Below, piece after piece: positions 54,431 through 59,067 of a stretch of DNA of 64,000 nt (positions within the stretch are counted from its first letter, which is position 1; every line of letters starts with the position of its first letter). Origin of the DNA: Bacteroidales bacterium (GTDB lineage Bacteria; Bacteroidota; Bacteroidia; Bacteroidales; UBA932). The stretch is taken from the NCBI GenBank assembly GCA_017477245.1, contig JAFUWY010000012.1:1-64000 (forward strand), in the 5' to 3' direction. Made by a program: the position numbers and the translations under genes. The notes under the pieces are model-generated. The model was not told the origin of the DNA and made no database searches. It worked only from the letters and a program-made list of their open reading frames with translations.

Positions 54431-55171
54431 ATGGAGAATGCCTATTCCAACCGGACCGAACTGCTGGTGGGCCCCGATGTGCTGGCCCGCCTGCACGAAG
54501 TGCGCGTGATCCTGTTCGGGGTCGGCGGCGTGGGCAGTTGGTGCGCCGAAGGACTGGTCCGCTCGGGCGTCCGGCACCTGACGCTTGTGGACGCCGACCG
54601 GATCAGCGAGAGCAATGTCAACCGCCAGCTGATGGCGACCCGCCGCACGGTGGGCCAGGTCAAGGTCGAGGCGCTCCGGGAGCGTCTGCTGGAGATCGAT
54701 CCGGAGGCCGAGATCGTCTGCCTGCAGAAGGTTTTCAGCGCCGAGACGGCAGGGGAGTTCTGCCTGGACGGTTACGACTACATCCTGGATGCCATCGATT
54801 CCCTGAAGGACAAGGGAGAACTGATCCTGCGGGGGACGCGCACGCCGGCCGTGTTCTTCAGCGCGATGGGCGCGGCGCTCAAAGTCGACCCCACGCAGGT
54901 GCGCGTGGCCGAATTCTGGAATGTCCGCGGCTGCCCGCTGGGGGCGGCGCTTCGCAAGAAATTCAAGCAGAACCATACCTGGCCCGGCCATAAGTTCCGC
55001 TGCGTCTACGACGAAGAGGTGCTGCCGAACCGGGGGAGTGTGGCCGTTGCCGAGACCGACCTGTTCAACAAGGCGCAGATCAACGGCTCCCTGGCCCACA
55101 TCACGGCGATTTTCGGGATGACGCTTTGCGGGCTGGTGATCGAAGATGTCTATCAGAAAGTAGTCGGATGA
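54431..55171 (+). CDS. tcdA: tRNA threonylcarbamoyladenosine dehydratase
   Basis: The 246-residue E1-like enzyme makes cyclic ct6A at position 37 of ANN-decoding tRNAs using ATP. It shows the ThiF/MoeB nucleotide-binding motif VILFGVGGVGSWCAEGLVRSG, the LVDADRISESNVNRQLMAT block, YILDAIDSLKDKGELI and the C-terminal NRGSVAVAETDLFNKAQINGSLA. Length and order of motifs fit TcdA/CsdL. Its stop overlaps the ATG of the following ABC gene (ATGA). Confidence 0.93.
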   Translation: MENAYSNRTELLVGPDVLARLHEVRVILFGVGGVGSWCAEGLVRSGVRHLTLVDADRISESNVNRQLMATRRTVGQVKVEALRERLLEIDPEAEIVCLQKVFSAETAGEFCLDGYDYILDAIDSLKDKGELILRGTRTPAVFFSAMGAALKVDPTQVRVAEFWNVRGCPLGAALRKKFKQNHTWPGHKFRCVYDEEVLPNRGSVAVAETDLFNKAQINGSLAHITAIFGMTLCGLVIEDVYQKVVG

Positions 55172-56460
55172 TGCTGGAGATCCTTCCCGGTGAACAGGTC
55201 GCCCTGGTGGGCGGCAACGCCTCCGGCAAGAGCCGGATCGCCGCCGCCTTTGCAGGCGGCGCGGGGGCGCGGTACATCACGTTCCGTGATTCCTACGGCA
55301 GCTACGGCGACCGCAATTTCTTCATGCAGCAGCGCTGGAACCTCTTTACGCTGGAGGACGACCCGCCCTCCGCAGGGGAGCAGCTGCGCAAGGAAGCGGC
55401 CGCGTGCGCGGATGCGACTGCGGCCGCCCGGCGGCTGGAGGAACTGACCGCCCTGTTTGCCCTCGGACCGGTGCTGGACAAGCCGCTGGTCACGCTCTCT
55501 TCGGGCGAGCTGCGCAAATTCCAGCTCACGCGCGCCCTGCTGGGCGGGCCTTCCGTGCTGGTCATCGACAATCCCTATATCGGGCTGGACCCGTCCGCGC
55601 GGGCCTCGCTCACGCGGCTGCTCGCTTCGCTCGCCGCCACGATGACGCTCGTGCTGGTGCTCTCGCGCGTGGCGGAGATCCCGCCGTTCATCACGCATGT
55701 GGTCCCTGTGGCGGACGGTGTGGCGGGCGCCAAGGTGCCGCGCGAAGCGTATCTCGAGTCGGTGCTCCCGCCGGCGGTGATCCGCCTGCGCGGGGTTACG
55801 ATCCGTTTCGGACAGCGGGTGATCCTGGACCGTCTGGACTGGACGGTGCGGGAAGGAGAACATTGGGTGCTGACCGGCGCCAACGGCAGCGGCAAGAGCA
55901 CGTTGCTGAGCCTGATCACGGCTGACAATCCGATGGCCTATGCCTGTGATATCGAACTCTTTGGACGGCCCCGGGGGAGCGGTGAGACCATCTGGGACAT
56001 CAAGCGCCAGATCGGCTTCGTGAGCCCGGAACTGCATCGCGCCTTCCAGGTGGATGCCCCGGCGCTCGACATCGTGGCGAGCGGCCTGTTCGATACCGAA
56101 GGCCTGTACCGCCATCCGACGGAGGAGCAATATGATGCCGCGCGCCGCTGGATGGCCGAATTCGGCATCGAGGCGTTGGCCGCTCGGCAGTTCCTGCGGC
56201 TCTCCAGCGGGGAGCAGCGGCTATGCCTGCTGGCCCGCGCCTTCGTCAAGAATCCGCCCCTGTACATCCTCGACGAACCCCTGCACGGCCTGGACGAGCC
56301 GCAGCGCCGCCGCGTCAAGGCCCTGCTGGACCGGATCTGCGGCGCTCCCGGCAAGACCCTCGTGATGGTCTCCCATTACCCGGAAGAATACCCCGCCTGC
56401 ATCGACCATAGCCTCACCTTGCAGACGGGGGCATATCCCCCGAACCCCCTGCGGCCATAA
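55168..56460 (+). CDS. ABC-type ATPase with two nucleotide-binding domains (ModF-like)
   Basis: The 430-residue protein has two ABC domains. Domain 1: Walker A ALVGGNASGKSRIAAAF, signature LSSGELRKFQLTRALLGG, Walker B VLVIDNPYIGLDPS. Domain 2: Walker A LTGANGSGKSTLLSLI, signature LSSGEQRLCLLARAF, Walker B LYILDEPLHGLDEP and H-loop VSHYPEEYPACI. No membrane partner is adjacent. ModF-like proteins of this arrangement are known, but the role is unclear. The last residues (TGAYPPNPLRP) are encoded by the first copy of a 104-bp tandem repeat that carries one extra G, so the native C-terminus seems to have been replaced. Start ATG 55168 overlaps the tcdA stop. Confidence 0.88.
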   Translation: MMLEILPGEQVALVGGNASGKSRIAAAFAGGAGARYITFRDSYGSYGDRNFFMQQRWNLFTLEDDPPSAGEQLRKEAAACADATAAARRLEELTALFALGPVLDKPLVTLSSGELRKFQLTRALLGGPSVLVIDNPYIGLDPSARASLTRLLASLAATMTLVLVLSRVAEIPPFITHVVPVADGVAGAKVPREAYLESVLPPAVIRLRGVTIRFGQRVILDRLDWTVREGEHWVLTGANGSGKSTLLSLITADNPMAYACDIELFGRPRGSGETIWDIKRQIGFVSPELHRAFQVDAPALDIVASGLFDTEGLYRHPTEEQYDAARRWMAEFGIEALAARQFLRLSSGEQRLCLLARAFVKNPPLYILDEPLHGLDEPQRRRVKALLDRICGAPGKTLVMVSHYPEEYPACIDHSLTLQTGAYPPNPLRP

Positions 56461-56695
56461 ACCCCTTTCCGTATTTGCCCTGCAGGCAAATACCCGGGGC
56501 CGGCCGGTCCGCTGATGCGGACTTTGCAGACGGGGCATATCCCCCGGACCCCCTGCGGCCATAAACCCCTTTCCGTATTTGCCCTGCAGGCAAATACCCG
56601 GGGCCGGCCGGTCCGCTGATGCGGACTTTGCAGACGGGGCATATCCCCCGAACCCCCTGCGGCCATAAACCCCTTTCCGTATTTGCCCTGCAGGC
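56419..56695 (+). repeat. 104-bp tandem repeat, about 2.7 copies
   Basis: Units begin at 56419, 56524 and 56628, each starting TTGCAGACGGGG; the first has an extra G. Each unit contains the inverted repeat TTTGCC/GGCAAA around CTGCA and a GGCCGGCCGG block. The third copy ends near 56695. The first copy supplies the stop codon of the ABC ATPase gene. Confidence 0.9.
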
Positions 56696-56715
56696 TTTTC
56701 ATGTTAAACACAGTG

Positions 56716-56831
56716 GTGGACCAGGTCCACTTTGAAGGCCTGTACCAGGTCCACCGGATATGCCCCAGAAGCCCCTCTGAGCCACACTAGGTGGACCTGG
56801 TACACCCCCTGAAATCCGACCTGGTCCACCC
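56716..56831. repeat. Palindromic element, left copy (flanks the 51-bp array)
   Basis: GTGGACCAGGTCCAC (56716-56730) is a perfect palindrome. TGTACCAGGTCCACC (56741-56755) is the exact reverse complement of GGTGGACCTGGTACA (56790-56804). The first 52 bases are identical to the right copy at 57311. Confidence 0.88.
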
Positions 56832-56850
56832 GACGGTGAAAACCAACGCC

Positions 56851-57258
56851 GCCAGGGGCGCTGCGACCTCTCTCAGCCCTTGGCAACTGGTTTTTCTGTC
56901 TGCCAGGGGCGCCAGAGTCCTTCTCTGCCCCTGGCAACAACCTCTTCATCCTACCAAGGGCGTTACGACCTCTCTCTGCCCCTGGCAACTGGTTTTTCTG
57001 TCTGCCAGGGGCGCCAGAGTCCTTCTCCGCCCCTGGCAACCGCTTTTTCTGTCCGCCAGGGGCGCTGCGACCTCTCTCTGCCCCTGGCAACAACCTCTTC
57101 ATCCTACCAAGGGCGCTACGACCTCTCTCCGCCCTTGGCAACCGCTTTTTCTGTCCGCCAGGGGCGCTGCGACCTCTCTCCGCCCCTGGCAACTGGTTTT
57201 TCTGTCTGCCAGGGGCGCTGCGACCTCTATCCGCCCCTGGCAACTGCTTTTCTTTTTC
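56851..57258. repeat. Eight contiguous 51-bp repeats with hairpin-forming ends
   Basis: Units start at 56851, 56902, 56953, 57004, 57055, 57106, 57157 and 57208, with no length change. Most start GCCAGGGGC and contain the inverse GCCCCTGGC 17 or so bases later. Units 3 and 6 start ACCAAGGGC. Two interior subtypes alternate (GCTGCGACCTCTCTC and GCCAGAGTCCTTCTC). The arms can pair within a unit or with the next unit. Confidence 0.92.
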
Positions 57259-57310
57259 CCGAAGCCGCCGAGAAGGAAAGTCAGGTAGGAAAGCCGGGAG
57301 GGAAAGTCGG

Positions 57311-57427
57311 GTGGACCAGGTCCACTTTGAAGGCCTGTACCAGGTCCACCGGATATGCCCCAAAGGGGCTTCTGAGGCAGGGTAGGTGGACCTGGTACAC
57401 CCTATAAAGTCGGACCAGGTCCATCGG
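57311..57427. repeat. Palindromic element, right copy (flanks the 51-bp array)
   Basis: GTGGACCAGGTCCAC at 57311-57325, TGTACCAGGTCCACC at 57336-57350 and GGTGGACCTGGTACA at 57385-57399. It has the same order and spacing as the left copy, in direct orientation. Identity is complete for the first 52 bases and lower afterwards. Confidence 0.88.
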
Positions 57428-57472
57428 GAGGGACCTCAATTTCTTCTGGGCGGGAGCAATGTCGCCGGGCAA

Positions 57473-57629
57473 GCGGGGCCGCCGGGAGTTCCCAAAACTC
57501 CCGGCGAGCCCCGCTAACCGCCGCGTCTGGTTATGCGCGGCGGTGGTGCACCATCAAAACCCTTCATTTCAGAATGAAATACCTAACATCTCCCCGCAGG
57601 GAACAGCCGCGCCGCGTATTGCGCGGCTG
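57473..57629. repeat. Three consecutive GC-rich hairpins
   Basis: Hairpin 1: GCGGGGC plus CCGGGAGT pair with ACTCCCGG plus GCCCCGC (57473-57514). Hairpin 2: ACCGCCGCG with CGCGGCGGT (57517-57544). Hairpin 3: CAGCCGCGC with GCGCGGCTG (57604-57629). None is followed by a T run. Confidence 0.8.
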
Positions 57630-57727
57630 CGATTCGCCCGTACTGTGTCTCGCATCGCTATGCTTCGCCTACACCGTATCCTTATTGAAAATGATCTGCT
57701 TCTATTATCCATCTCTCTCCACCCACC

Positions 57728-57959
57728 AAAAGCGTGATATGCAACGGGTTGATTGGCAATCAAAAACGAAGATCACTGGTCCTTCTGGAGGCACCAGTGA
57801 TTATTAAATAATGTTCAGTGTCAATAGTTTGCTCATCACGCCTCGAAAGCGTGATGAGGAACAAGCTGAATGTCAATCAAAAGCGGAGATCAGAGGTCCT
57901 TCTGGAGGCACCAGTGGTTCTCAAATATTGCTCATTGTCAATAGTTTGCTCATCACGCC
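57728..57959. repeat. 117-bp tandem duplication with conserved hairpins
   Basis: Two copies, offset by exactly 117 bp, share GTCCTTCTGGAGGCACCAGTG, CAATAGTTTGCTCATCACGCC and AAAGCGTGAT segments. Copy 1 forms ATCACTGGT/ACCAGTGAT (57772-57780 with 57793-57801). TCATCACGC/GCGTGATGA (57833-57841 with 57849-57857) spans the junction. The rest has diverged. Confidence 0.85.
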
Positions 57960-58093
57960 ACCCAGTAAAAGGGAGTTGGGTGTTGGTTAGTTAAAGAGAG
58001 AGGAGTGGAATGAAGACGAGAAGACGAGGTGGATGATACAGGATAAGATAGCTCAAGACGTGTGGGCGGCTCAGCGTTGAGCAGGGGTGTAGC

Positions 58094-59067
58094 TTAACGC
58101 TGGTCTCGCCAAGCGAAGTAGTCGCGGATGGCGTCGGCGACGGGGGTGTGGGGGAGTCCGAGTTCGCGGTCTGCCTTGCCGGAGTCATACCATTCTTCGA
58201 TCAGCAGCTGGTCGGTGTTGCGCGTGCAGAGCATCGTACGCACGCCCATCGCGCGGAGCAGGTCGCCCAGGCGGCCGGCGAGCCGGACCAGGCCGTCCGG
58301 CAGGTTCACGAAACACTGCCAATAGCCGCAGACCCGTGCCTGCAGGGCATAGAATTCTTTCAGCGTAAGCGATTCTCCCGTAAGAAGATAGCGGCCGCTG
58401 TCGCCTTGCTCCAGGGCATGGACGATGGCGGTAGCGGCGTCCCGGACATGCAGGAAACTCTTCCCGCCGCGCGGCCCGGCCATGAGGGGCTTGCGCCAGG
58501 CGGCCAGCAGCAGCGTGGCCGAGGAGGGCTTGGTGTCGTAGGGGCCGACCATGAAGCCGGGGCAGACGATGACGATGCGATGGCCGGGGTGGGTGGCGGC
58601 CCAGCCTAGCAGTGCGTCTTCACCGACTTTCTTGCTGATGGCATAAGGGGCGTGGCAGAAGGGAGCGGCGAAGGGTGCCGACTCGTCGGTCGGGTGTTCC
58701 TTCGTCCCGGCCGCGAGGGTGTTGGCCGTGCTCGTGTGGACCAGCGTGCGGATGCCGGTATGTTCCAGGACCCGGCAGAGCAGGCGCGGCAGGTCCCGGT
58801 TGACCGGGTTGAAATCCTCCACCCGCGGCAGGCGCATGTCCGTGGTGCCGATGCAGTTGATGATGGCCTCGCACCCGTCGGCCGCCCGGAGCAGGGTCTT
58901 GTCATCCAGCGGATTGCCATACTGCACTTCCGGGAGCGGGCACGAGCTGGGGAGATCGCTGGCAAGTCCGGTCGGCGCAGCAGGACGCGGACGGCCTCCC
59001 CGCGCTCCAGCAGGAGGCGGAGGACGTTGTGGCCGAGCAGGCCGGAAGCGCCGAGCAGCAGGATCAT
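58094..59067 (-). pseudogene. NAD-dependent epimerase/dehydratase (extended SDR), frameshifted
   Basis: The N-terminus reads MILLLGASGLLGHNVLRLLL, the NAD(P)-binding GxxGxxG motif, from ATG 59067. The frame then leaves the expected protein near 58965. The rest continues in another frame to 58094: DLPSSCPLPEVQYGN, then AINCIGTT-like GCEAIINCIGTTDMRLP, VHTSTANTLAAG, the active-site-type YAISKK, and ending VADAIRDYFAWRDQR. Adding one base near GACTTGCC (minus strand) restores a single reading frame. It is either a recent pseudogene or an assembly error. Typical products act on NDP-sugars or similar compounds. Confidence 0.85.

Follow-up and report, generated by a model that had tools for sequence, protein, structure and literature searches.

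A tandem array of 51-bp units in a Bacteroidales genome: probable membership in a REPIN/BIME-like repeat paired with an unnamed RAYT-like family

Introduction

What is the array of eight 51-bp units that lies between an ABC ATPase gene and an epimerase-like gene in a Bacteroidales genome, and to which gene does it belong? The initial annotation of the window (the whole stretch of 64,000 nucleotides analysed here) described the units as spacerless hairpin repeats and considered a structured RNA, a protein-binding array or a repetitive peptide gene. On the evidence presented below, the array very probably consists of tandem copies of a REPIN/BIME-like repeat, presumably mobile, which would be bound and served by an unnamed RAYT-like protein family.

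The array and its junction

The features of the junction, in window coordinates, are as follows.

55171..56460, plus strand: ABC ATPase gene, left of the junction (Pfam ABC_tran; putative start codon; matched in seven of eight relatives)
56419..56695, plus strand: 2.7 copies of a 104-bp tandem repeat; the ABC gene has its 3' end and stop codon inside this repeat
56715..56828, plus strand: dispersed element of about 114 bp, upstream of the array, carrying inverted sites of GGTGGACC/GGTCCACC
56851..57258, plus strand: 51-bp array of eight units (register print, Tandem Repeats Finder, family consensus)
57308..57436, plus strand: second copy of the approximately 114-bp element, downstream of the array, used as the search query
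58094..58927, minus strand: NAD-dependent epimerase/dehydratase-like gene, convergent, right of the junction (Pfam Epimerase)

The eight repeats were confirmed as consecutive 51-mers in register, starting at 56851, 56902, 56953, 57004, 57055, 57106, 57157 and 57208; Tandem Repeats Finder reported a period of 51 and 7.9 copies at 56851-57251, and the eighth unit deviates in its final bases. The array exists as described and greatly exceeds what chance would produce. Each unit consists of a 9-nt arm, a 16-nt inner spacer, a 9-nt inverted arm and a 17-nt T-rich linker.

The whole junction is rich in repeats, comprising the 104-bp tandem, the two 114-bp elements that flank the array and a 117-bp tandem pair. 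Since the stop codon of the ABC gene falls inside the 104-bp tandem, the last residues of the protein come from the repeat. The 114-bp element, with inverted sites 75 bp apart, was found at 20 places in the genome (our grouping), 16 of them beside 51-bp units; it may be a unit belonging to another transposase-like gene. The 117-bp unit is present in two tandem copies at 57729-57959 and has inverted ends of the GCGTGATGAG/CTCATCACGC type.

A dispersed family of 51-bp units

The search for homologous arrays, suggested by the initial annotation, was successful: further arrays are present in the same genome, and relatives have arrays too, mostly built on other motifs. A DNA search of the source genome gave 40 matches. 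A profile built from 56 units (R1) gave at least 155 matches at about 25 places on 18 of the 48 contigs (our grouping); the scan scored 150 of 2520 candidates and near-palindromic places match R1 on both strands, and 155 is not a unit count. Over the non-redundant loci retrieved, 108 of the 124 steps shorter than 350 bp between adjacent units on the same strand were 51 bp, the others being 50 (3), 52 (4), 102 (2), 157, 201 (3), 277, 286 and 303 bp. Steps of 50 or 52 bp accounted for 7 of the 115 steps in the range of 50-52 bp.

Units of the same array are more alike than units of different arrays (75.5% versus 63.7% in 20 arrays with at least three units), with no decay of likeness over lags 1 to 4 within arrays; this is as expected for dispersal followed by local amplification. 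The arms are the most conserved parts (entropy of 0.52 and 0.53 bits, versus 0.99 for the spacer and 1.34 for the linker), and the consensus of the 56 units contains neither GTAG nor CTAC. According to a rough ORF call, the arrays occupy convergent, co-directional and divergent gaps. On contigs C9, C10, C12, C14, C17 and C47 of the source genome (G000), arrays come to within about 1 kb of a contig end; the assembly may therefore break at such places, and copy numbers are probably lower bounds.

A transposase-like gene enclosed by arrays

One gene of the source genome is located between two arrays of the window-type unit (L023 2777-3491 and 4868-5224).

G000, contig C7, 27034-27978: P0002, 315-aa HUH/Y1 transposase-like gene

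P0002 has no Pfam or NCBIfam match. The Pfam Y1_Tnp search found four other genes and missed this one, which was recognised by inspecting the gene between the arrays. Its translation contains SHLH, with the tyrosine of AYVNRNGY 58 residues past the first histidine, and H79, H81 and Y137 are invariant among 45 aligned relatives (44 of the 80 named loci described below and one viral sequence). With an HUH motif and a single predicted catalytic tyrosine, P0002 appears to be a member of the HUH/Y1 (IS200/IS605-TnpA_REP) superfamily. Y137...N141 is followed by G142, giving Y---NG instead of the class-2 signature Y---NP.

The source genome contains nine matches to P0002 at E 0.001. Comparison of the P0002 profile with six other genes of this genome gave E 1.7e-49 over 279 columns, with histidine aligned on histidine and tyrosine on tyrosine. 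Of these six paralogues, two were compared with known families: L030 and the C16 gene (L012/L250) matched NCBIfam REP_Tyr_transpos (1e-9 and 8e-8, both below the curated cut-off) and Pfam Y1_Tnp (4e-6 and 1e-4). The Y1_Tnp protein L031 matched the P0002 profile at E 2e-5 with 77% probability. The curated RAYT family NF047646 did not match P0002, and the four Y1_Tnp proteins of the genome scored 31.8-38.3 against its cut-off of 80. Among PDB chains, the top hits of the P0002 profile were 2xm3 and its kin, which we take to be ISDra2 transposase chains; they aligned at the HUH motif with a weak E of 0.04, nearly tied with an unrelated chain at 0.048. Comparison with E. coli RayT was not significant either for the P0002 profile (E 0.067, versus 0.12 for the unrelated neighbour YafL) or for the paralogue set (E 0.02).

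Of 300 genomes sampled from the genus, 242 have relatives of P0002 (E 1e-10). Such relatives are also present in named Bacteroidales, many from rumen or horse, including Candidatus Cryptobacteroides, Egerieousia and Cacconaster. The IMG/VR viral contig L245, which may be prophage or host DNA, encodes a relative with 36% identity.

Gene-motif pairs within genomes

The motifs of the P0002 unit are the inverted CCAGGGGC and GCCCCTGG. They occur 25 times in the P0002 locus and 0, 0, 1, 0, 0, 0 and 1 times in seven other transposase-like loci, the eight loci being of different lengths. The C16 gene has a motif of its own: two units of CAYAACGTCC, with half-steps of 19/32, lie on either side of it. 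This motif is present in the source genome in 21 exact copies, forming nine pairs with a spacing of exactly 51 bp, plus three single copies, while the reversed control pattern gave none. P0002 and the C16 gene both show the REPtron/REPIN-RAYT arrangement, in which a gene is flanked by its own repeat and the repeat is dispersed. Judged from these sequence patterns, P0002 is likely the partner gene of the 51-bp units. A third transposase-like gene, on C15 (L249 11611-12498), has GTTTCCCA motifs on either side, stepping by 72 bp, so the 51-bp step does not hold throughout the wider superfamily. The flank method described below gave no clear array for the remaining transposase-like genes of the genome.

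Repeat dispersal in other genomes was surveyed with R1 and one query from G074. R1 gave 14 matches in G216 and 6 in G113, where the P0002 relatives are 70 and 69% identical and have CCAGGGGC flanks. It also gave five matches in G124 (C13, C17, C77) and one in G193 (C43), although the genes there have CCGGGAGC. One match was found in G008 and none in G074, G056 and G015. In 40 other genomes (24 of the genus), R1 produced a single weak match, in G008.

Motifs change with the protein while the step is retained

Flanks of 600 bp were searched for the 8-mer with the most alternating inverted occurrences, and same-strand steps were measured with one mismatch allowed. In the genus set, 53 of 70 transposase-like loci had an alternating inverted flank motif stepping by 50-52 bp, and both flanks carried the motif in 41 of the 70. 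Such a step was found in none of 21 methyltransferase-gene loci, a control set from which 5 of 26 short loci had been dropped and in which one flank usually held the gene's own end (a partial match), and in 0, 2, 1, 0 and 0 of 70 loci in five dinucleotide-preserving shuffles. In the 42 genus loci with at least two alternations, 266 of 329 steps were 50-52 bp, and 242 were exactly 51 bp. The step was also found in 60 of 80 named loci, a second set made up of the best 80 of 269 and sharing part of its genomes with the genus set. The method did not detect a 50-52-bp step in 17 of the 70 genus loci and 20 of the 80 named loci. Three loci (L102 and L123 of the 70, L229 of the 80) had wrong gene borders, and at least L123 and L229 count as positives; L102 and L123 were left out of the protein alignment and kept in the flank counts.

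The pooled sets were filtered for two alternations, an intact frame and a 50-52-bp step, giving 77 loci, reduced to 54 at a protein identity cut of 90%. In this set, selected for steps of 50-52 bp, the step was 51 in 47 loci, 52 in four and 50 in three. The motif was present on both sides of the gene in 51 of the 54 loci, with the nearest copy at a median of 12 bp past the stop codon. The 54 loci gave 44 different 8-mers, some of them shifted frames of one motif. Distances between opposite motifs also varied (24/27, 25/26, 22/29, 23/28, 17/34, 21/30 and others), and their sum stayed near 51.

The more alike two proteins are, the more alike their motifs tend to be (r 0.305; mean 0.00 and maximum 0.137 in 1000 permutations). 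Among the 24 pairs with 70-90% identity, 71% shared at least 8 of 16 motif matches, against 4% of pairs below 40%; the relation is not monotonic, only 12% of pairs at 60-70% identity reaching this level. For the P0002 flank the automatic choice was the spacer 8-mer GCGGAGAA, and the arm was used instead in the similarity test. Clades with other motifs, e.g. GGAACAAA and CCGGGAGC, occur among P0002 relatives. Beside the P0002 orthologue of G074, the array at L091 1582-1915 is built of a 121-bp super-unit of 51 plus 70 bp.

Occupied and empty sites

The window junction was compared through the ABC gene in the seven relatives that have it. Two of them lack any array: in G124 and G008 the epimerase gene directly follows the ABC gene, leaving no room for one. 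Two others have different motifs with a 51-bp step, namely units of the CGGGGTGC type with steps of 24, 27 and 24 in G074, and, in G113, GCGGAAGACGTCC twice, 51 bp apart, with an inverted copy and a different gene following. G216 has a different neighbour, with no array noticed in the stretch viewed, and in G193 and G015 the junction is truncated by a contig end.

Arrays also occur within genes. A four-unit 51-bp array (L028 2855-3057) lies in frame in a methyltransferase-like (PG_1098/THUMP-like) gene, the one full-length copy in the source genome, and lengthens the protein by about 69 residues, at the end of the first matched Pfam domain or beyond it. The orthologue of G015 has no insert, that of G074 has its own two-unit version, and that of G008 has a diverged insert in the same place. 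The G074 unit is also in frame within a helicase gene, presumably HrpB.

Comparison with known systems

The closest parallels are with REPIN/BIME-RAYT systems (TnpA_REP) of P. fluorescens SBW25 and E. coli. According to the portions of the sources considered, these likewise comprise short dispersed inverted motif pairs, sometimes in tandem and mostly intergenic, and transposase-like genes flanked by their own repeat type, with several independent pairs per genome (PMC3116915, PMC8266576). Tandem REP clusters are already described there and elsewhere (parts of PMC3116915 and PMC8049555). Unlike REPIN-RAYT, the unit consensus here has no GTAG guide, the protein is about 315 aa long with Y---NG, and E. 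coli RayT is not detected directly by the P0002 profile. SBW25 doublets peak at 71 and 110 bp, whereas here one 51-bp step is common to many motifs. Since the curated RAYT cut-off, Y---NP and GTAG are all missed, P0002 and its units were not filed as canonical RAYT and REP.

The TnpA_Y1 subclass 2.6 of Bacteroidetes, set beside the present family by description only, also has atypical repeats, lacking GT[AG]G, on the flanks of its genes, with copies elsewhere in the genome and "atypical secondary structures"; its proteins are listed with 179 aa and YIH[QN]NP, and the portion of the source considered mentions no fixed step (PMC6006769). TIRYT/TIRtrons resemble the present system in having HUH/Y1 proteins flanked by non-GTAG inverted repeats with dispersed copies and clusters, but most of their repeats share GGGGWSAS, and the relevant section mentions no constant period (PMC3733652). 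Rickettsia palindromic elements and intragenic REPs are likewise inserted in frame into conserved genes (same section of PMC3733652); the insert here, in contrast, is a four-unit 51-bp array in a methyltransferase-like gene. BrickBuilt of Porphyromonas gingivalis is also a Bacteroidales repeat, combining a MITE with a tandem minisatellite; it was compared by description rather than by sequence, and the extract considered mentions no RAYT link (PMC4596501). Among the papers listed for the open-licence PMC literature, none dealt with a fixed-period repeat family, which is no proof of absence; the 51-bp step common to different motifs is the new point here.

Origin of the arrays and alternative explanations

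The preferred explanation of the window array, as a tandem cluster of a REPIN/BIME-like repeat, would operate as follows. Each unit carries the inverted pair CCAGGGGC and GCCCCTGG, and pairs recur every 51 bp. The P0002 protein could bind and nick the units as single strands and spread them to new sites, where arrays would then gain and lose units locally through slippage or unequal exchange. The step would be set by the way in which the enzyme or its DNA substrate spans the motif pairs.

A bolder version, which we put forward tentatively as a possible rather than a probable property, is that this HUH transposase-like family of gut Bacteroidales measures DNA. Any motif could then serve if its pairs recurred at 51 bp, and the ruler would be the conserved part of recognition or copying, not the sequence or the hairpin; arrays might, for example, be copied or excised as roughly 51-nt units.

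Another possibility, unlikely in our judgement, is that the units are binding sites for an architectural or regulatory protein of the chromosome and that the transposase-like gene is simply one further place with such an array. The arms are indeed conserved as motifs rather than as pairs, as their low entropy shows, and the phasing is near-constant at about 25 dispersed places. Against this, the motif is tied to the transposase-like gene, being present on both flanks in nearly all of the selected loci, and changes with the protein, and two different gene-motif pairs coexist in one genome. A protein-binding array was the closest of the three ideas in the initial annotation; the evidence goes further, to a mobile REPIN-like repeat.

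A structured non-coding RNA or regulatory hairpin array, with arms selected for pairing, is very improbable. Inverted motif doublets do occur in the units, but their GGGC/GCCC core hardly varies; it can therefore always pair, which is uninformative either way on a hairpin. The arms and the changes within them are as originally described: unit 6 is doubly changed (CCAAGGGC/GCCCTTGG), unit 3 has a broken pair and unit 1 a G-T pair. The double change had been taken as part of an incomplete case for selected structure. Over 142 genome units this position is G-C in 97, G-T in 31, A-C in 12, T-C in one and A-T in one, the sole A-T being window unit 6, which is no more than independent changes give. 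For the pairing test, 142 of 152 profile hits were kept, with near-palindromic units at a few loci counted on both strands. Summed arm pairing was 1111 of 1278; shuffles within arrays averaged 1111.3, with 1154 of 2000 reaching the observed value, and a global arm shuffle averaged 1112.5. In the 56-unit alignment, all five covariation and pairing measures fell inside the shuffle range, and the RNAalifold covariation term was -0.14. Covariation across homologous units, the basis of the RNA proposal, was thus absent, and a structured RNA supported by covariation was rejected on the shuffles and the alignment. The two alternative folds envisaged along the array exist as geometry, the arms pairing about as well inside their own unit as with the following one (7.82 and 8.02 of 9), but are no evidence of folding. 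The highest Rfam score in window 56400-58100 was 27.8 bits against a gathering threshold of 150, and the location of arrays in gaps of all three orientations also argues against an RNA.

Least probable of all is a repetitive peptide gene with a 17-codon repeat, which would suit a unit length divisible by three, long frames open on both strands and the in-frame array of the methyltransferase-like gene, but is opposed by the absence of a Pfam match for either long window frame, by the 50- and 52-bp units and by some sister motif families that step by 50 or 52 bp.

Implications

The way in which RAYT-linked repeats spread is called unresolved or poorly understood in the portions of PMC3116915 and PMC8266576 considered. 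The relatives of P0002 offer dozens of natural gene-motif pairs that keep the 51-bp geometry while the motif changes with the protein, a ready data set for the residues that contact the motif and for the feature that sets the step. The repeats may explain some assembly breaks, as well as the Pro/Gly-rich in-frame insert in a conserved gene. The pairing of gene and repeat also suggests a function for a protein family that is matched in most of the sampled genomes of the genus and whose member P0002 has no Pfam or NCBIfam model.
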